From: Pseudomonadota bacterium
GTDB lineage: Bacteria > Desulfobacterota > Desulfobulbia > Desulfobulbales > Desulfurivibrionaceae
Direction of reading: 5' to 3'
Assembly: GCA_018830485.1 (NCBI GenBank)
Contig: JAHJRQ010000012.1
Coordinates: forward strand, 62,001-126,000
Length of the DNA stretch: 64,000 nucleotides
Within the stretch, counting starts at the first letter, position 1; every line of letters starts with the position of its first letter. Below the pieces are notes generated by a model that had not been told where the DNA came from, ran no database searches, and saw only the letters and a list, made by a program, of their open reading frames with translations. Shown here piece by piece: positions 7,397 through 34,817 of the stretch. A program made the position numbers and the translations under genes.

Positions 7397-7867
7397 TTGC
7401 CCTGCCCTGCCCCCTTTCATATCGTTCTGGTCGAGCCGGAGATCCCCCCTAATACCGGGAGCATCGCCCGGCTGTGCGGGGCCACGGATACCGTCCTGCA
7501 TCTGGTCCGCCCCCTGGGCTTTTCCACCGAGGACAAGCACCTGAAGCGCGCCGGGCTTGATTACTGGAAGTTTGTCGATATCCGCTACTGGGAGAGTTTC
7601 GAGGAATTTCTCGCAGCCCGGGACGAGCTGCGGTTGCACTTTTTTACCACCAAGGTGGAGCGGCCGTATACCGAGGTGGCCTACCAGCCCGGCGATTATC
7701 TGGTATTCGGCCGGGAGACCAAGGGGCTGCCCGAGGAGATCATCGATCTCTACCGGGAACGCTGCGCCACCATCCCCATGTCCAACCCCAACATCCGCAG
7801 CATCAACCTGGGCATGGCCGCGGCGGTGGTGCTCTACGAGGCGATCAGGCAGCGGGATTTGCGGTAG
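7397..7867 (+). CDS. trmL: tRNA (cytidine(34)-2'-O)-methyltransferase
   Basis: A 156-aa SPOUT-fold methyltransferase that 2'-O-methylates the wobble base of tRNA-Leu isoacceptors. Family marks are VLVEPEIPPNTGSIARLCG at the N-terminus, LVFGRETKGLPEEII (SAM-binding loop), and PMSNPNIRSINLGMAAAVV at the C-terminal knot. The start is a TTG only four bases after the M23 gene stop, with no strong ribosome site, so the exact N-terminus is uncertain. Probably co-transcribed with the peptidase. Confidence 0.9.
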   Translation: MPCPAPFHIVLVEPEIPPNTGSIARLCGATDTVLHLVRPLGFSTEDKHLKRAGLDYWKFVDIRYWESFEEFLAARDELRLHFFTTKVERPYTEVAYQPGDYLVFGRETKGLPEEIIDLYRERCATIPMSNPNIRSINLGMAAAVVLYEAIRQRDLR

Positions 7868-7898: not shown

Positions 7899-7972
7899 CC
7901 TTCGACAGGCTCAGGATGAACGGATTTTACTGATACGATTAATTTTCCGTTCACCCTGAGCCTGTCGAAGGG
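7899..7972. repeat. Dispersed palindromic repeat, family 1 (CTTCGACAGGCTCAG), copy 1
   Basis: A 25-base arm beginning CCTTCGACAGGCTCAGGATG is followed 23 bases later by its inverted copy with one mismatch (CCGTTCACCCTGAGCCTGTC and onward). It sits between the convergent trmL and radical SAM genes and could form a large hairpin acting as a two-way terminator. Further copies are at 34747, 36168 and 37873. Confidence 0.9.
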
Positions 7973-7983
7973 CGGTCTTGTTG

Positions 7984-9294
7984 TCACACAGAAGCTGCTC
8001 CGTACCGGTATTTCATTTCCTGCATCACCATCTTCTCCAGGGTCGCTTCGAAGAACCCCTTCCGGCAATCCACCTTGGCCATGTTTCCGTCCCGCTGATA
8101 GGCCATGTAACGGCAGCCGCCAAAGCAAAGCGGCAGGTATTGGCACTCCCGGCATTTGCCTTCTCTTTGCCAGTGCCCCAGATGATGGGTTTCTCTGTAT
8201 CGCTTGTCTATCCCCTGCCAGATATCGCCGATCTTGAACTGTTCGTGACCAACCCAGGTTATGCACTTGTACAGGGTGCCATCGTAATTCACGCTGAAGG
8301 CGTCGTCCACTTCCACGGCGCAGGGCTCCGGCCCCAGTTCACCAAGGGAATAGCCCCGCTTGAACACCTCTTCCCGCACATGCAAGGACGCCTCTTGCAA
8401 CCATGGTTCGCTGATGGTGCAGCAGCCGCCATGGTAGGTATTGTTGGCGATGGTATCGTTGATCTGCATGACGATATTGAAGTTGACCAGCTCCAGGCGA
8501 TCCGGGGTAATGCCCTGGGCTGCCAGAGTATCGAGGATGGGCGGAAAGCTCCGGAAGTTGTCGCGGGTAAAGTTGCCGCCCAGGCGAATCTTGGTCTTGG
8601 TGCAGACCTTGGCCAGATTGTTGACGATGGTCTCGAAGCTCGGTGCGCCGTTTTTGAAGGGGCGGAAATGGTTGTGATTTTCCGGGGGGCCGTCCAGCGT
8701 CACCTTGACCCCATCCAGCCCCCACTGGTTCAGCTCATCCACCACCTGCGGGGTGAGGAGCGAGCCGTTTGAAACCAGATCGATGACAAGCTCTCCGCCC
8801 ATGGCTTCGACAAAGGGCTTGAGCTGTGCGGCCAGGGCGATGATGCGCTGTTTATAGAGGAGCGGTTCGCCGCCGTAGAGCTGGAGCTGGAGTTTTTTCT
8901 TGCCCGGAGTGAAACGCTTTTTGATATAGGCGATGAGTTGGTCTGCCGTCGCCTCGGTCATGTTTTTTTTGCCCTTCTGCTCGCCCTGGAAGCAGTATCT
9001 ACAGGCAAAGTTGCATTCAAGACCCAGGATGACGGCCACGGTCAGGTTGGGATTGATCCGGTTGAGTTCGTCCAGGTAGCCGGACACTGCCTGACGTTCC
9101 TGGGCAATACTCTCAACCAGAAACCCCGTTTCCTTGAGGGGCTCGACATGCTCCGCCTCCACCCTGCCCTGTTGCAGGTCGGCAAAATCCTCCTGCGGTA
9201 AGACGATGAGAGCGCCGGTTTTGGTTGCGAACAGCACCATCTGGTCGGGATTGTATGGGTACGGAAAGGAAACCAGATATGGGGTGAGTTGCAT
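7984..9294 (-). CDS. Radical SAM/SPASM peptide maturase (geopeptide-maturase-like)
   Basis: A 436-aa enzyme predicted to modify the small peptide encoded just upstream. Residues 1-65 form the short lead domain common in peptide maturases (FATKTGALIVLPQEDF and LKETGFLVES). The radical SAM cluster motif is CNFACRYC at residues 94-101, with the glycine-rich QLYGGEPLLY after it. The C-terminal SPASM region has cysteines in EPCAVEV, LYKCITW, GKCRECQYLPLCFGGC and VDCRKGF, enough for two auxiliary Fe-S clusters. The chosen ATG has GAGGAG seven bases upstream; the longer frame from 9318 would run through the terminator. From memory it resembles the radical SAM proteins paired with 'geopeptides' in Geobacter relatives. 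The chemistry (for example thioether or C-C bonds) is unknown. Confidence 0.88.
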   Translation of the reverse strand: MQLTPYLVSFPYPYNPDQMVLFATKTGALIVLPQEDFADLQQGRVEAEHVEPLKETGFLVESIAQERQAVSGYLDELNRINPNLTVAVILGLECNFACRYCFQGEQKGKKNMTEATADQLIAYIKKRFTPGKKKLQLQLYGGEPLLYKQRIIALAAQLKPFVEAMGGELVIDLVSNGSLLTPQVVDELNQWGLDGVKVTLDGPPENHNHFRPFKNGAPSFETIVNNLAKVCTKTKIRLGGNFTRDNFRSFPPILDTLAAQGITPDRLELVNFNIVMQINDTIANNTYHGGCCTISEPWLQEASLHVREEVFKRGYSLGELGPEPCAVEVDDAFSVNYDGTLYKCITWVGHEQFKIGDIWQGIDKRYRETHHLGHWQREGKCRECQYLPLCFGGCRYMAYQRDGNMAKVDCRKGFFEATLEKMVMQEMKYRYGAASV

Positions 9295-9316
9295 GGGAGA
9301 CTCCTCGGGTTGCAAC

Positions 9317-9350
9317 AAAAAAAAGGAGGGCCGAAGCCCTCCTTTTTTTT
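9317..9350 (-). terminator. Intrinsic terminator between precursor peptide and maturase
   Basis: A perfect 7-bp stem GGAGGGC/GCCCTCC closes a TTCG tetraloop on the minus strand, flanked by eight A on the 5' side and eight T on the 3' side. It lies 16 bases after the peptide stop and 22 bases before the maturase ATG. It should end most transcripts after the peptide and let a minority through to the enzyme. Confidence 0.88.
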
Positions 9351-9365
9351 GTAAAGATGTGAAAT

Positions 9366-9461
9366 TTATTTTGCTGCTGCGGGTGCCCCTGCACAGCAGC
9401 CCATGGTGGCTGCAACCGTTTTGACGTCTTTTCCTTTGGCCAGAATCGTAATCTTTTTCAT
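9366..9461 (-). CDS. Putative RiPP precursor peptide, 31 aa, Cys-Cys core
   Basis: Too short for routine calling. It starts at an ATG at 9461 preceded by a strong AGGAGG site. The N-terminal half MKKITILAKGKDVKT is lysine-rich and leader-like. The C-terminal half VAATMGCCAGAPAAAK is a small-residue core with adjacent cysteines at positions 22 and 23. It is followed directly by an intrinsic terminator and then by the radical SAM/SPASM maturase gene. An 89-base gap separates it from the TonB receptor gene upstream, which could hold its own promoter. Evidence for coding: perfect ribosome site, terminator just after the stop, and the partner enzyme. The function of the mature product is unknown. 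Alternative: a small metal-binding peptide that is not modified. Confidence 0.82.
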   Translation of the reverse strand: MKKITILAKGKDVKTVAATMGCCAGAPAAAK

Positions 9462-9550
9462 ACGTCCTCCTGTGGTTGAAAAACTGCTATTGCCTCGTGA
9501 AAAGGCGGCCGATGGTGCCTAGTCTATCACAAGAAAAACGGCAAACTCCA

Positions 9551-11476
9551 TCAAAATTTGAACATCGCTCCCACCTCTACCCAGCGATCTGGGTTAGGAT
9601 AGTCAACATCCCACATCTGGTTGCCGTTGAAGATATTGTGCGCCTTGAGAAAGAGATCGCCGCGGCAGGCCGACAGAGAAAAATCCCTGCTGAGCATGGC
9701 ATCCCAAAGCATATCGTCGCTGTCGTGGGTGTCGTTTTGCATATCTTCATTATACCAGATGTAGTTGCCGGCCAGCTCGGCGCGGATACCGGAAGGTTTG
9801 TGCCGGTATCCGAATATCAGGTTTGCGCTGTAGGTCTCGTCGCCTTCAAGATTTGTCGAGCCGTCGCCCATGCTGTCTTCCGTGGTATAGGTGAAGTTGG
9901 TGCGCAGAGACAGGCCGTGGAATTCCCTGGTCCGGAGGTCGAGATCAAAGCCCTGCCGGCGAACCTTTCCCTCGTTGGTAAAAGGGCTTGATGCGGTTTG
10001 CCAGGCATCATCGACATCAAGATAAAAGACGGAGAGCTTGCTGGTCAGGTAAGGGATGCGGAAGGTCTCAACCCCGGCCTGGTACGCCCAGATGATCTCC
10101 GGTTTCAGGTCGGGGTTTGCGTATGACGTGACAGAATAGGGTGCGGAGAAGCCACGGGCCACCGAGGCGCGCAGCAGGGTGTCGTCGGCCACCTGATAGG
10201 TGGCGCCAAGGGAGGGGCTGACAAACTCGTCGGAATTGGAATGGTAGTCGTAACGCAGGCCCGGGGTGATGGAAAACTTGCCATACACATAGGTGGCGTT
10301 GGTATAGATACCACGCCGCTCTTCCTTGAGCGGGTCGTTGATTGTGGTTGAGGGGCCCCATAGAACGCCCAGCCCTGTCTTGGAATCGATTTCGCTTCTG
10401 TTTGATTCAACACCGAGGTTGGCGGTAATGGCCTCCCCTGTCCAGTTTAAAGCGCCGCTGACGCTGGTATTGACATCCTTCCAGTTCTCCATGTAGATAA
10501 AATCGCCTTTAGGCCCCCCTGATCCCGTGCCCAAGGAACGCCAGTCATTGGTGAAATCATTTTCATAGCGTTGGACTGCAAGGTGCAGGTTGAGCCGGTC
10601 GGTGAAGCGGGTATCAAAGTAGAGGGTACCCCAGAGGTTGTCATTGCTGACGTCATCGTATATGTCGAGGGTTGGGATGCCCCAAGCATCACGCCAGTCA
10701 AGGGCTTTAAAGGAAGGATTGCTGGTGCCGCCGCTTGCTACCAGGGTTGAATTGTGGGGCAAATTGACCTGCATCTTGCCGTAAACGGCGTTGCGCTCGG
10801 AGTAGCGATCATTCTTCAGGCCGTCGGAGTCGATGTTGCCAGCATAGACAAAATACCCGTTTTTTTCATTGCCGCCGGCCAGATCGGCAGCCAGCTCCCG
10901 GGTGTTGGCTTCGCCATAGCTTATATTGACGTTGCCGGTCGGAATCCTGGATTTGCCCGCATCCTTGGTGATGATGTTGACCACCCCTCCGAGCGCTGAC
11001 CCCCAAACCGAAGAGGCCGGGCCTTTGATGATCTCGATGCGTTTGATGATGCCCACCGGTATAAAGTTGGGGATGGCAAAGCCGTTTGAGTTGAGATTGA
11101 CCCGGACGCCGTCCAAAAGCATCAACATCTGGTGCCGTTGAGCGCCAAGAGGGTATAGCTGTTCATCGCCGAGTATTTCGCGGCCGCTGAAAGGCACCAA
11201 CATTCCGGATTCGCGGCTGATGATTTCGGCCACCGAATGCGCGTGCATCGCCTCGATCTCTTCCGCCGTGATGATGGAAACGTTCTCCGCCACCTGACGC
11301 AAGGGTTTTGGCGCGCGGGTGGCGACCTCCACCATCTGGGAGTCGTCGAAATACATGGACATGGGGGCCTGGGTTTCGGTCGGTTCGGCACCGCTGCTCA
11401 GGGTGGGCAGCAGAGCGAGGAGAAAAACAGCGGTTCCGGCGGAGGTGCGACTACAGAAAAAATACGGATGCGGCAT
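9551..11476 (-). CDS. TonB-dependent outer-membrane receptor
   Basis: A 641-aa receptor with a signal peptide (AVFLLALLPTLSSGA), an N-terminal plug domain (about residues 50-165; VATRAPKPLRQVAENVSIIT, VPFSGREI, LMLLDGVRVNLNS, IKRIEIIKGPASSVWGSAL, GGVVNIITKD) and a C-terminal 22-strand barrel ending in aromatic VGAMFKF. It resembles the cobalamin/siderophore group, but no cobalamin riboswitch is visible upstream. It lies on the same strand just before the precursor peptide and maturase, and diverges from a binding-protein/kinase operon. The ligand is unknown; import of a metal complex, or export or import of the modified peptide, is speculation. Confidence 0.9.
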   Translation of the reverse strand: MPHPYFFCSRTSAGTAVFLLALLPTLSSGAEPTETQAPMSMYFDDSQMVEVATRAPKPLRQVAENVSIITAEEIEAMHAHSVAEIISRESGMLVPFSGREILGDEQLYPLGAQRHQMLMLLDGVRVNLNSNGFAIPNFIPVGIIKRIEIIKGPASSVWGSALGGVVNIITKDAGKSRIPTGNVNISYGEANTRELAADLAGGNEKNGYFVYAGNIDSDGLKNDRYSERNAVYGKMQVNLPHNSTLVASGGTSNPSFKALDWRDAWGIPTLDIYDDVSNDNLWGTLYFDTRFTDRLNLHLAVQRYENDFTNDWRSLGTGSGGPKGDFIYMENWKDVNTSVSGALNWTGEAITANLGVESNRSEIDSKTGLGVLWGPSTTINDPLKEERRGIYTNATYVYGKFSITPGLRYDYHSNSDEFVSPSLGATYQVADDTLLRASVARGFSAPYSVTSYANPDLKPEIIWAYQAGVETFRIPYLTSKLSVFYLDVDDAWQTASSPFTNEGKVRRQGFDLDLRTREFHGLSLRTNFTYTTEDSMGDGSTNLEGDETYSANLIFGYRHKPSGIRAELAGNYIWYNEDMQNDTHDSDDMLWDAMLSRDFSLSACRGDLFLKAHNIFNGNQMWDVDYPNPDRWVEVGAMFKF

Positions 11477-11686
11477 GCTGATCTCCCAGGTAATAAATCA
11501 AATATTACGCATGATCCTAAACGGTTATATGCGCTCTGTCAGTCCCCCCCGGGTTACAGGCAGCCTCTCTTCATGCAGGAAGGCCTTATCTCAGCCTTGC
11601 GCAATGGCGCACAAGGTTCTACGATTTATGATAGGTTGTTTCGTGTCGGAAAGATTTCCCCTTTTCTTTACGGGTTTGATGCGTCG

Positions 11687-12625
11687 GTGAAAAAGTGCGT
11701 CCCTCTCATAACCATGCTGCTTGTGGCCCTTGCTGTTCCCGCCTGGGCGCTGGACTGCGTCCTGCTCCAGTCTTCGCCGCTCAAACCCTATGAGGAGGCC
11801 CGCCAGGGTTTTGAAAAGGTCTGGCTCGCCCAGCCTTCGGCCACGGGGCCGAAAAGCATCAGCGGCAACACCGTAACACAGATTTTGCTGTCCGAGCAAC
11901 AGACAACCAGTGGTTTTTCCCTGAAAAAACAGTTGCAGAATGCCCGGCTGGTGGTGGCCATAGGGGATCAGGCCGTGGAGTTCGTTAAGGATCTGCGGGA
12001 GGTGCCTGTGGTCTATCTGCTGGCGCCCTCGGCCGCTTTCCTGCCCAAAAACTTCATCGGCATCGAGATGCGCATCCAGCCTTCTCGCCAGATGGCCGCA
12101 ATCAACAAGGCGCTGCCCAAGGTCCGCTCCATCGGGGTTCTCTACAATCCCGGCCAATCCGGCCAGTGGGTGCAGGAGGCGCTGCTCTCGCCGGTGGCTT
12201 CGGTGCAGACCCTGCTTTTCAAGAAGTTCGACAGCCAGACCAGTCTGCCCGGGGCGCTCCAGGAGATGGCAGGCGCGGTCGACGCCTACTGGCTGCTGCC
12301 GGATCCCCAGCTCACCGCGCCTCAGGTCTTGGGCAGCCTGCTGGAGTTCTCAATGAAACACCGCATTCCCATCATCAGCTTTTCGGAGAAGTACCTGGCG
12401 CCGGGCGCCGCCATGGCGGTGACCTTCGACACCGTTGACATGGGCGCCCAGGCCGCCGAGCTTGGCGCCAGGATTGCCCGAGACGGCCTGAGCGGAGACA
12501 TCCCCCCTCTCACCCCGCCCCGCAAGGTCAGAGTGGTGGCCAACCCCACGGTGCTTGAACGGCTGGGTGTTCCTTATGCCCCCAAAGGTATCGACGCCAC
12601 CTACATCCCGGAGGGTGGACGATGA
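11687..12625 (+). CDS. Periplasmic ABC-type substrate-binding protein, sensor-associated (PF04392-like)
   Basis: A ~312-aa exported protein. The start taken is GTG 11687, giving signal peptide VKKCVPLITMLLVALAVPAW; ATG 11711 is the alternative. The body matches the TrpX/PF04392 family: LVVAIGDQAVEFVKDLREVP, GIEMRIQPSRQMAAINKALP, SIGVLYNPGQSG, AVDAYWLLPDPQLTAPQ and FDTVDMGAQAAELGARIARD. No permease or ATPase follows. Instead its last codons overlap a histidine kinase gene (ATGA), so it probably presents a ligand to that kinase. Divergent from the TonB receptor gene with a ~210-base shared upstream region. Confidence 0.82.
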   Translation: MKKCVPLITMLLVALAVPAWALDCVLLQSSPLKPYEEARQGFEKVWLAQPSATGPKSISGNTVTQILLSEQQTTSGFSLKKQLQNARLVVAIGDQAVEFVKDLREVPVVYLLAPSAAFLPKNFIGIEMRIQPSRQMAAINKALPKVRSIGVLYNPGQSGQWVQEALLSPVASVQTLLFKKFDSQTSLPGALQEMAGAVDAYWLLPDPQLTAPQVLGSLLEFSMKHRIPIISFSEKYLAPGAAMAVTFDTVDMGAQAAELGARIARDGLSGDIPPLTPPRKVRVVANPTVLERLGVPYAPKGIDATYIPEGGR

Positions 12626-14343
12626 GTTTCCCGGTCCTGCACTGGATGAAGAAAAAAATTCGGCTCCCCAGGGGCTATCGCCTGAAGCTGTTCCTTACCT
12701 TTCTGGGGGTCCTGGTCCTCTGCGGCACCGCCCTGATTGTGCTTTTCGGCCAGATACAGAGACAAACCCTGCTGGAGGAGACATACAACAAGGGGAACTT
12801 CGTTTCCACGATCCTGGCCCGCAACCTGGAAATCCCGCTTTTTTTCATGAACACGGAGCAGATCAGCGCCAATGTGGAGGCCATCTTCGGGGCAACCGAT
12901 CTGGTGTCCGTGTTCATCTACGACAGGGAGGGCAAGCGGATCTTTTCCCATTTTGCGCCCCAGGCGGAAGGAATCGCTCCCCGGTTGGAGGAAATGGGCG
13001 GTCTTGGCCAAATCATGGCGGAACACTTAGCCGCCGATGGATATTATCCCAACCCCCGCTGGCGACAGGAGCACTATTTCGTGTTCTCTAAGCGGATCAG
13101 CACTGCCGGTTACTCTCGCGATCAGACCTCCCTCTATTTCGACACCGGCAAGGTGGAGCAGCGCCAGGTCACCGACCTTGGCGGGGTGCAGATCGTTTTC
13201 AGCCGGGCCCAATACACACAGGGCATGGAACGGATCATCCGGCATGTCTTGCTGCTCTTTCTCTTCTTTCTGCCCATTTCCCTGTTTACCGCCGTGATGC
13301 TGACGCGGGACGTGGTCAGGCCGTTGCGCGCCCTGGTCGAAACCCTGAGCATCCGGCTGGGGATAACAGAAGAAGAAGAAGAAGAAGAAGAAGAGAAGGC
13401 AACCGATGAACTCGGCCAGCTCGACATCCGCATGAAGCAACTGGTCACCCGGCTCGAGCAATCCTTCGACACCATCGCCCTGATGAACGAAGGACTTGAG
13501 GAAAAAGTCGCCGCCCGCACCGCCGAACTCACCAGGGCCATGCAGGAGCTCAAGGAGGCTCAAGCCTTGCTGGTGCAGTCCGAGAAGATGGGCGCCATGG
13601 GGCAACTGGTCGCCGGGGTGGCCCACGAGGTCAACAACACCACCAATTTCATCACCGGCGCCCTGCCGCCTCTTGGAAAACGGCTGGACGAGCTGCGCCG
13701 GATTCTGGACGGGTTGGGGAAGCAATGCTGCCCGGATGCTTCCAGGGTGGCTGAGTTGATGCAGAGCATCGACCTGCTCATGGGCAATGTCCGGGAAGGG
13801 GCGCGGCGGACCAGCAAGATCGTCTCCGATCTTAAAAATTTTTCCCGCCCGGACAACGATCTTGCCCGCCCCATAGACATCAATCATTGCCTGGAAAGCA
13901 CCCTGGCTCTGGCCTTGCCCGAGTATCGGCACCGGCTGGAGGTGATCAGGGAGTTCGCGGATGATTTGCCGCCGGTGCCCGGCTCCCAGGGGCAGCTCTG
14001 CCAGGTATTCATGAACCTGATCATCAACGCGGTTCATGCACAACCGGACAAGGGTTTCCTGCTGATCCGCACCTTCAGCACGGAGGATGGCGTGCATGTG
14101 GTGTTTGCGGACAAGGGGGCGGGGATTCCCAAGAACATCCAGGAAAAGATTTTCGAGCCGTTTTTTACCACCAAGGAGGTCGGCAAGGGCACCGGACTGG
14201 GGCTGAGCGTCTCCTTTGGCATTATCAGCAGGCACCGGGGCAGAATATTGATGCGCAGCGAACCCGGCCAGGGAGCTGAGTTCGAGGTGATCCTCCCAAC
14301 AGGGCAAGAACCGATCATGGCACAACACGAGGAGCATAAATGA
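12622..14343 (+). CDS. Membrane sensor histidine kinase with poly-Glu run
   Basis: A 573-aa kinase. One membrane helix lies near residues 25-45, then a ~150-aa periplasmic sensor domain, a second helix (LLLFLFFLPISLFTAVML) and a HAMP-like linker. At residues 250-258 nine Glu follow GIT, encoded by eight GAA and one GAG. A coiled coil (EEKVAARTAELTRAMQELKE) leads to the phosphoacceptor His335 in GVAHEVNNTTNF. The ATPase domain has FMNLIINAVHAQ (N box), DKGAGIPKNI and GKGTGLGLSVSFGI. It overlaps the binding-protein gene and the first response regulator gene, so the four genes form one signalling operon. Confidence 0.93.
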   Translation: MSFPVLHWMKKKIRLPRGYRLKLFLTFLGVLVLCGTALIVLFGQIQRQTLLEETYNKGNFVSTILARNLEIPLFFMNTEQISANVEAIFGATDLVSVFIYDREGKRIFSHFAPQAEGIAPRLEEMGGLGQIMAEHLAADGYYPNPRWRQEHYFVFSKRISTAGYSRDQTSLYFDTGKVEQRQVTDLGGVQIVFSRAQYTQGMERIIRHVLLLFLFFLPISLFTAVMLTRDVVRPLRALVETLSIRLGITEEEEEEEEEKATDELGQLDIRMKQLVTRLEQSFDTIALMNEGLEEKVAARTAELTRAMQELKEAQALLVQSEKMGAMGQLVAGVAHEVNNTTNFITGALPPLGKRLDELRRILDGLGKQCCPDASRVAELMQSIDLLMGNVREGARRTSKIVSDLKNFSRPDNDLARPIDINHCLESTLALALPEYRHRLEVIREFADDLPPVPGSQGQLCQVFMNLIINAVHAQPDKGFLLIRTFSTEDGVHVVFADKGAGIPKNIQEKIFEPFFTTKEVGKGTGLGLSVSFGIISRHRGRILMRSEPGQGAEFEVILPTGQEPIMAQHEEHK

Positions 14344-14807
14344 TGAATGCAAAAAAAGGGCGGGTGCTGTATGTGGACGACGAGGAAATCAATCTGGTCA
14401 ATTTTCGGGAGACTCTGTGTGACGAGTTCGAGATATTCCTTGCCGGGTCCGGCAAGGAGGCGTTGGCCCTTCTTGCCCGGGAGGGGGAAATGGCCCTGGT
14501 GGTCTCCGACCAGCGGATGCCTGGGATGACCGGCATCGAGCTGCTGAGCAAGGTTCGGGAAGCATACCCGGACACCATCCGGATGATCATCAGCGCCTAC
14601 ACCGAAATCCATGAACTGATCGATGCCATCAACAAAGCGGAGGTGTACCGGTATTTCGTCAAGCCCTGGAAGGAAGACCAATTGCGGCTCACCATCGGCA
14701 ACGCGGTGGGCACCTATGCCCTGGGCCAGGAGATCAAGCAGTTTGTCGAACAGGGAAGAAAACAGATGGCAGAGCGCATGCGGAGCCTGGAGGGAGAGAA
14801 AGGATGA
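14340..14807 (+). CDS. Single-domain-type response regulator (RpfG-like receiver)
   Basis: A 155-aa protein. The receiver domain occupies residues ~9-125: acidic pocket VDDEE, phosphoacceptor Asp in LVVSDQRMPGMTG, and the conserved Lys in YRYFVKPWKEDQL. A short helical tail follows, with no DNA-binding or enzymatic output domain, so it may act by protein contact or as a phosphate shuttle. The start ATG overlaps the kinase stop, and its own end overlaps the next regulator by four bases. Confidence 0.92.
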   Translation: MMNAKKGRVLYVDDEEINLVNFRETLCDEFEIFLAGSGKEALALLAREGEMALVVSDQRMPGMTGIELLSKVREAYPDTIRMIISAYTEIHELIDAINKAEVYRYFVKPWKEDQLRLTIGNAVGTYALGQEIKQFVEQGRKQMAERMRSLEGEKG

Positions 14808-15466
14808 GCCGGCCTCGCTTGCTGTTCATCGACGACGAGGAAATCAACCGGAGTAACTTCCAGGAGACCTTTGGGGATGAGTATGAGATTCTGCTGGCCG
14901 GTTCCGGGGAGGAGGCCTTGGAGATCATGGCCCGGGAAAGCGCCCTCGCCCTGATCCTTTCCGACCAGCGGATGCCGGGGATTTCCGGGGCCGAGGTGCT
15001 GGCCCGGGCCCGCGAGCTGGCGCCCAAGGCGGAACGGATTATGATCACCGGCTATTGCGAACCCGACGACATCATGGCCGCCATCAACCAGGGGCAGGTA
15101 TACCGGTATATCCTCAAGCCCTGGACCAGCGGAGAGCTGCGCATCGCCATTATCCATGCGGTGGAGCGGCATCAGCTCAAAGAGGAAAACCTGGCCCTGC
15201 TCTTAGCCCTGGAGAAAAAGAACGCCGAACTGGAGGAGCTGGTCCGGGCCCGGACCATGGAGTTGAAGAATCTCCAAAGCCTGCTGCCCATCTGCTCCTA
15301 TTGCCGGAAGATCCGTGACGACAGGAATGCCTGGCACGGGCTGGAGGAATATTTGCTCCAGCATACCGACATCCTTTTCACCCACGGCATCTGCCCGCAC
15401 TGCTACGACAAGGCGATAGCGGAAAACATGCTTCTGCTCGGCGAGTTGAAGAGCAAGGGGAAATAA
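14804..15466 (+). CDS. Response regulator with C-terminal Cys-rich (zinc-finger-like) module
   Basis: A 220-aa protein. The receiver (LLFIDDEEINRSNFQETFGD, LILSDQRMPGISG, YRYILKPWTSGEL) closely resembles the preceding gene and is probably a tandem duplicate. After a coiled coil (ALEKKNAELEELVRARTMEL) comes a C-terminal module with ICSYCRKIRDDRNAWHGLEE and THGICPHCYDK. This CxxC...CxxC pattern is common at the ends of regulators and kinases in this group and probably binds a metal; its output is unknown. Last gene of the sensor operon. Confidence 0.9.
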   Translation: MSRPRLLFIDDEEINRSNFQETFGDEYEILLAGSGEEALEIMARESALALILSDQRMPGISGAEVLARARELAPKAERIMITGYCEPDDIMAAINQGQVYRYILKPWTSGELRIAIIHAVERHQLKEENLALLLALEKKNAELEELVRARTMELKNLQSLLPICSYCRKIRDDRNAWHGLEEYLLQHTDILFTHGICPHCYDKAIAENMLLLGELKSKGK

Positions 15467-15478
15467 CTTCTTTTTTGT

Positions 15479-15509
15479 ATATCCCCCTCTGGGTCAAAGG
15501 GGGGGATAT
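15479..15509. repeat. Short palindrome between convergent genes (CCCTCCCCC family fragment)
   Basis: ATATCCCCCTCT and its near-inverse AAGGGGGGGATAT around GGGTCA form a hairpin between the response regulator and lpxB 3' ends, with a T-rich stretch on the left side that could serve minus-strand termination. Its sequence resembles the larger CCCTCCCCC repeats at 42502, 46559, 53887 and 59420. It overlaps the last codons of lpxB. Confidence 0.5.
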
Positions 15510-34746: not shown

Positions 34747-34817
34747 GCTTCGACAGGCTCAGCACGAACGGAATATCAATGCGTTAAGAGATCCGTTCGC
34801 CCTGAGCCTGTCGAAGG
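34747..34817. repeat. Dispersed palindromic repeat, family 1, copy 2
   Basis: Left arm GCTTCGACAGGCTCAGCACG (continuing GAACGG) and right arm CCGTTCGCCCTGAGCCTGTC (continuing GAAGG) are inverted copies about 21 bases apart. It starts 18 bases after the stop of the preceding gene and may act as a terminator hairpin. Confidence 0.9.

Follow-up and report, generated by a model that had tools for sequence, protein, structure and literature searches.

A block of genes in the window (the whole stretch of DNA that was analysed, 64,000 nucleotides) comprises a precursor peptide of 31 residues, a radical SAM/SPASM maturase, a TonB-dependent outer-membrane receptor and a divergent set formed by a periplasmic binding protein, a histidine kinase and two response regulators. 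Peptide and maturase very probably make a geopeptide-type RiPP, and comparison of the genes among relatives favours, with some confidence, a full circuit where this RiPP would be released, re-imported and sensed. The widest form of the proposal is put forward tentatively, at somewhat less than an even chance: a closed circuit of making, release, re-import and sensing in a Gram-negative lineage, where an atypical geopeptide would act as a pheromone or as a sensed metallophore, the genes would be gained and lost as one unit and at least one relative, a receiver only, would eavesdrop. An earlier note on this DNA had interpreted peptide and enzyme as a compact RiPP cassette; this interpretation is supported; the receptor, the binding protein, the kinase and the two regulators linked to the pair had gone unnoticed.

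The gene order on the minus strand is receptor (9551-11476, plug and barrel by Pfam PF07715 and PF00593), 31-codon ORF and radical SAM/SPASM gene, the receptor being directly upstream of the peptide. The plus strand carries, in divergent orientation, a PF04392 periplasmic binding protein with a probable signal peptide (11687-12625, with an inferred GTG start; the Pfam search used a longer frame starting at 11567), a histidine kinase with HATPase_c that appears to be a membrane sensor by sequence inspection (12622-14343) and two response regulators identified by domain search, one with a receiver domain (14340-14807) and one with a Cys-rich C-terminal tail (14804-15466), both absent where the block is absent. 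The tail of the second regulator (window 15293-15403, plus strand) reads CSYCRKIRDD...ICPHC, and no Pfam DNA-binding domain was found in it. The flanks of the block are a SpoU-family methylase gene (ending at 7867), which we take to be the gene named trmL, and lpxB (ending at 15494). Repeats of CTTCGACAGGCTCAGG face each other in inverted orientation, as a pair, where the block borders on the methylase gene (7899-7971), with further window copies at 34802 and 36168. No RNA family was identified in the window at gathering scores, and the promoter scan of the window gave a chance-level result (3 found against 3.1 expected).

The precursor gene (9366-9461, minus strand, stop included) encodes MKKITILAKGKDVKTVAATMGCCAGAPAAAK, and its AGGAGG ribosome binding site (9466-9471, minus strand) ends four nt before the ATG. 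The leader half is MKKITILAKGKDVKTVAATMG and the core half CCAGAPAAAK. A single-protein search of genome contigs found only one relative. Searching 395 phylum genomes and 58 relatives with the TIGR04280 maturase model (E 1e-60 or better) gave 73 distinct matches, 57 of them over the cut-off; these were present in 40 of the 395 phylum genomes (31 over cut-off) and in 30 of the 58 relatives (27 over cut-off). The first reading comprised 60 loci with 61 maturases and the other 12 matches were read last, the weaker radical SAM matches of the window's own genome (L002-L008) being left out of the counts. A CC peptide was identified near 61 of the 73 maturases. Among those over the cut-off it is present at 55 of 57, the exceptions being L091 and L092.

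In the first reading a small CC ORF lies within 700 nt upstream of 52 of the 61 maturases, and four more, farther off or divergent, raise this to 56. The five without it are L091 and L092, which have 1.6 and 0.8 kb of contig left on the upstream side, and three that score below the cut-off (L098, L100 and L103). The last 12 matches, mostly partial or below the cut-off, gave a CC peptide in five: upstream in L145, L146, L147 and L155 and downstream in L149. For the others, L156 has a single-Cys peptide downstream, L153 and L154 have almost no sequence upstream, and L148, L150, L151 and L152 showed no convincing CC peptide. Nine maturases below the cut-off had no clear CC peptide, though most had sequence to search. 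Four of the 56 peptides, and those of the last 12 loci, came from a wider search that also required the leader pattern. In L145 two CC peptides stand in tandem before the maturase match, at distances of 389 and 183 nt.

Since CC was what the search asked for, its invariance is partly by construction, and the fair tests of the peptide are a gene control and a homology search with the window peptide. In the gene control, a CC ORF with ATG and ribosome site within 300 nt upstream was found at 51 of 61 maturases and at 3 of 570 other genes; requiring the leader pattern as well gave 50 of 61 and none of 570. This control and the sequence itself confirm the 31-residue Cys-Cys ORF with AGGAGG that the earlier note had placed beside a radical SAM/SPASM enzyme. 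In the homology search of 28 relatives all 12 matches with E below 0.06 sit at maturase loci; the thirteenth maturase-bearing relative was reached at E 0.59, five of 18 were missed altogether, and four weak matches (E 0.15 to 0.77) lie away from maturase loci. No further copy was found in the own genome at E 1 or better, the peptide being single-copy by this search. Among differing peptide codons, the synonymous share is 11 of 18 between the window and L077, 11 of 20 between the window and L082 and 10 of 22 between L077 and L082. By these sequence comparisons the small ORF is a real, conserved peptide gene. The earlier note had suggested looking for a short CC ORF near homologous maturases and named two outcomes that would count against it, namely a consistent lack of such an ORF and a frame without conservation in relatives; since the frame is conserved beside homologous maturases, neither of them holds.

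Peptide and maturase are neighbours on the same strand, as expected of a geopeptide if the feature is taken from the names of the models. The enzyme does not follow as directly as had been described, the gap being 71 nt with a GC hairpin and then eight T. This hairpin (9317-9350, minus strand, identified by folding, with A/T flanks) is probably a partial terminator favouring peptide over enzyme, and the peptide would be transcribed in excess because an intrinsic terminator would stand between the two genes. Of 51 loci, 35 have a terminator-like hairpin; 30 shuffled sets gave 10.3 on average and 16 at most. A generic terminator scan of the window, itself near chance (11 found against 8.5 expected), omitted the 9317-9350 hairpin.

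The maturase (7984-9294, minus strand, 436 residues) scores 480.7 bits on TIGR04280, the geopeptide radical SAM maturase model (cut-off 400), over model positions 1-428 of 428, which bears out the guess of a geopeptide-type system. The next-ranked full-length models are far under their own cut-offs; those of the ranthipeptide type gave 129.4 bits for PapB (cut-off 340) and 101.5 for SCIFF (cut-off 425). Both the CNFACRYC motif and the Cys-rich SPASM tail that had been pointed out are present, the former as CX3CX2C at residues 94-101 and the latter with the full SPASM cysteine set (325, 344, 381, 384, 390, 394 and 410). In the alignment, C94, C98, C101, C325 and C344 are found in 61 of 61 maturases and C381, C384, C390, C394 and C410 in 60 of 61. 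The best PDB match of the family profile is 5wgg (E 1.7e-40), which we take to be the SCIFF maturase CteB.

The full-length model of the maturase was poor (mean pLDDT 49.7) and was set aside, and the structure search covered the N-terminal domain. Residues 1-84, modelled from a two-sequence alignment with mean pLDDT 87, form three strands followed by three helices. In the comparison with solved structures, RiPP biosynthesis proteins fill all of the first 13 rows with Z from 7.0 to 3.1, the first unrelated protein having 2.9. The top matches are TbiB1 with leader peptide (Z 7.0, rmsd 2.3, 59 aligned), lasso B1 (6.4) and PqqD (5.3), and lower ones include ThcOx, 5wgg/5why, a heterocyclase and SuiB; Foldseek on the same model gave weak matches (best E 8e-3). 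The N-terminus is predicted from this model to be a PqqD-like leader-recognition (RRE) domain, a reading that would make the enzyme a leader-dependent RiPP maturase. The maturases of L115, L117 and L118 contain an extra C-terminal, apparently helical domain of about 290 residues with an RYxDDFID-like motif, and the two of these domains that were tested gave no significant Pfam match.

The 56 peptides of the first reading share a hydrophobic stretch in the leader, loosely xVLxxG-like in 55 and of the stricter form [VIL][LIVF]xxG in 51. The core starts with CC, and Arg or Lys is found nine residues past the first Cys in 34; the two cysteines are the only invariant residues, CC having been the search rule. 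The basic character that the earlier note had seen in the leader is not a family trait and was rejected as a defining one, 35 leaders being acidic, 18 basic and 3 neutral by net charge. Six of the 56 cores, the window core among them by inspection, lack Ser, Thr, Asp, Asn and Glu, so a general thioether to such side chains cannot be the rule, and we infer that the Cys pair or alpha-carbons are the likelier sites of the chemistry. Selenocysteine variants were rejected on a TGA-as-Sec scan of the 60 loci, where none of the four matches was leader-like beside a maturase.

Of the 56 peptides, 43 were compared with TIGR04229, the geopeptide precursor model of 22 positions, and 14 of these gave a match at E 1 or better; the window peptide gave no match at that level. 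The best score belongs to L104, with 29.6 bits against a cut-off of 30. The six-frame search with TIGR04229 found 1 of the 395 phylum genomes, below the cut-off, a lower bound since a model of 22 positions is hard to find in whole genomes. By score, then, the window peptide is no TIGR04229 member, yet it is geopeptide-like in its apparent role, and the choice offered earlier between a geopeptide-type system and an unreported variant comes out partly right on both sides: the matches of 14 peptides stand for the first and the unmatched window peptide for the second. NCBIfam already names the maturase and a geopeptide, and most of these precursors escape TIGR04229.

Single-Cys peptides with a similar type of leader were identified just 3' of divergent maturases in L098 (MKLQVIKKGTRKDDKKTLYCAWFVST, 8262-8342, minus strand) and L100 (MKLKVVKKGSKEDKKVLWCFWYLYV, 10909-10986, plus strand), and less clearly in L156, also downstream. 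The maturases of these three loci are under the TIGR04280 cut-off. In L098 and L100 the peptide adjoins a kinase and a binding protein of cluster c13 (SBP_bac_5 by Pfam in L100). They are possibly a sister class of peptides.

The second element of the block is the receptor with its sensor. For 54 of the 61 maturases a TonB receptor was located at most 2.5 kb away, four of the seven misses being at contig ends; among the 12 maturases read last, 6 have one at that distance. A PF04392 protein was identified within 8 kb of 46 of the 61, and a kinase likewise at 46, each being missed at 15 partly owing to contig ends; the receptor, binding-protein and kinase profiles were built from proteins at these loci. 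The orientation of receptor and peptide varies among families (one strand or divergent) and the linkage persists. Receptors linked to maturases score 414-878 bits on their own profile, three other receptors of the own genome 130-229 and the distant receptor of L116 264, a gap that is merely indicative as the profile was built from the linked receptors. L083 and L087 contain two tandem receptors of the linked subfamily beside one peptide and maturase. The receptor of L088 (G301:C49) has one in-frame TAG and may be a pseudogene or an assembly error. A strict dependence between receptor and peptide is ruled out by a PF04392/TonB receptor pair without peptide elsewhere in the own genome, and, given this pair, the module could have a sensing target other than the peptide.

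Receptor and maturase are both present in 29 of the 58 relatives, both absent in 27 and discordant in 2, an agreement of 56 of 58 (Fisher p 4e-14, the genomes being related and kinship uncorrected). The discordant genomes are G412, with the maturase only, on a contig that starts 343 nt upstream, and G400, with the receptor only. Among nine genomes of the same genus that lack the maturase, seven showed the flanking methylase gene, and all seven were read. In each of them this gene is next to lpxB, the aligned ends being separated by no more than 133 nt; no maturase, receptor, binding protein, kinase or regulator lies between the flanking genes. No peptide match better than E 0.15 was found in the nine genomes. 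The genes being jointly absent between the flanks, the block comes and goes as one unit. In G400 (L141) long matches were obtained for the receptor, the binding protein, the kinase and both regulators, and the peptide is gone, a short stretch resembling the maturase C-terminus being left between the receptor stop and the methylase gene (L141 14390-14490); the assembly has a completeness of 85% and a contamination of 6%, and its contig ends close to the junction. A receiver half without peptide and maturase is what would be expected if the ligand can come from neighbours.

The modification and its chemistry, the export, the re-import, the sensing and the output are proposed as follows. The RRE of the maturase would bind the leader, with the conserved [IV]xVLxxG-like stretch as the most likely site, and the radical SAM/SPASM domain would then modify the core, most likely at the Cys-Cys pair because these are the sole invariant core residues. 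The intergenic terminator would hold the enzyme level below that of its substrate. The mature product would leave through a putative exporter, either unassigned or of housekeeping type, and return through the dedicated TonB receptor. In the periplasm the PF04392 protein would catch it, and the kinase and response regulators would read the signal. The product could serve as an autocrine signal or as one for the community, possibly with a metal in complex.

The strongest of the other readings puts supply before signalling: the Cys-Cys product would bind a metal outside the cell and be re-imported for nutrition, the kinase sensing the metal-laden complex. Metallophores of the methanobactin type are made with the enzymes MbnB and MbnC. 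The two thiols of the core would suit such a role, and the PDB relatives of the receptor are B12, colicin I, siderophore and heme receptors. The divergent locus L099 adjoins a Peripla_BP_2 protein, a FecCD permease and an MFS protein, and genes of an oligopeptide-type ABC transporter adjoin L069 (tested) and L084 (by clustering), a set that counts for the circuit as well, since it could be an onward carrier of the peptide. Supply would however need an inner-membrane ABC permease, unless a shared one is used, and none is conserved across the loci. This reading is held to be rather unlikely. As for export, MFS genes adjoin 5 of the 61 maturases (L091, L099, L102, L120 and L123, by clustering, with Pfam on three of the five).

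A lower probability is given to a product that stays inside the cell. What the receptor, binding protein and kinase sense would then be a nutrient or metal from outside, and the peptide, once modified, would be a regulated product within the cell, such as a cofactor or a peptide for redox or metal handling. No linked exporter, peptidase or protease is conserved across the loci, which counts against the circuit and would fit a product that stays inside, and the peptide-free PF04392/TonB pair of the same genome points the same way. Against it, peptide and receptor are still neighbours in L123 and L067, where the maturase is farther off, and G400 keeps receptor and sensor after the loss of the peptide, although an external ligand would fit that genome too. 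Some radical SAM RiPPs are antibacterial, and a small, probably modified peptide with a TonB receptor could suggest a bacteriocin-like antimicrobial; this is very improbable, the pair being tied to a sensor module with no additional conserved candidate gene for immunity or export. A chance frame, which the shortness of the ORF and the lack of a name for the peptide in the tested libraries might suggest, is ruled out with near certainty by the conservation at 61 of 73 maturases, the gene control, the homology search and the codon comparison.

The released, re-imported and sensed RiPP is thus the reading retained here. Its linkage to receptor and sensor gives an orphan RiPP a concrete functional hypothesis, that of a self-imported and self-sensed ligand, and points experimenters to deletion targets and a read-out. 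For the discovery of new radical SAM chemistry, the peptides of this family, which share a CC pair and a leader motif, offer substrates that are ready to use.

No paper on geopeptide or TIGR04280 was found in the literature search, which left most subscription journals outside. For TIGR04229 and geopep, none of the matches listed contained TIGR04229, and by title they were lipopeptide, marine-product and software work; among the matches listed for radical SAM with RiPP, TonB and Geobacter there was no paper on such a system.

Several known systems can be compared with the window. The Bacteroides ItfA/ItfD/ItfF cluster is a radical SAM RiPP cluster with a TonB-dependent transporter, a YcaO protein and an ABC/C39 exporter-peptidase (PMC11002830, in the excerpted text). 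The TonB-dependent transporter is common to both, YcaO and exporter-peptidase are features of Itf, and a sensing module of binding protein and kinase goes unmentioned in the excerpted description of that cluster (PMC11002830). In the thio(seleno)oxazole RiPPs of SbtM a radical SAM/SPASM enzyme acts on Cys or Sec of a small peptide with the loss of four hydrogens, according to the same excerpts (PMC11002830). The radical SAM/SPASM enzyme and the small peptide are the likeness with the window; the SbtM class is defined there by IPR018641, and the window enzyme is likened to it by description.

The ranthipeptide/SCIFF maturases CteB and PapB are likewise radical SAM/SPASM enzymes, and the N-terminus of CteB (5wgg) is among the RRE-like matches; the difference is that the window core lacks an Asp, Asn, Glu, Thr or Ser acceptor and that their models score below cut-off. 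From the geopeptide pair of NCBIfam (TIGR04229/TIGR04280) the window differs in a peptide unmatched by TIGR04229 and in a receptor and sensor covered by neither model, and it resembles that pair in its maturase over the cut-off with a small CC peptide adjacent.
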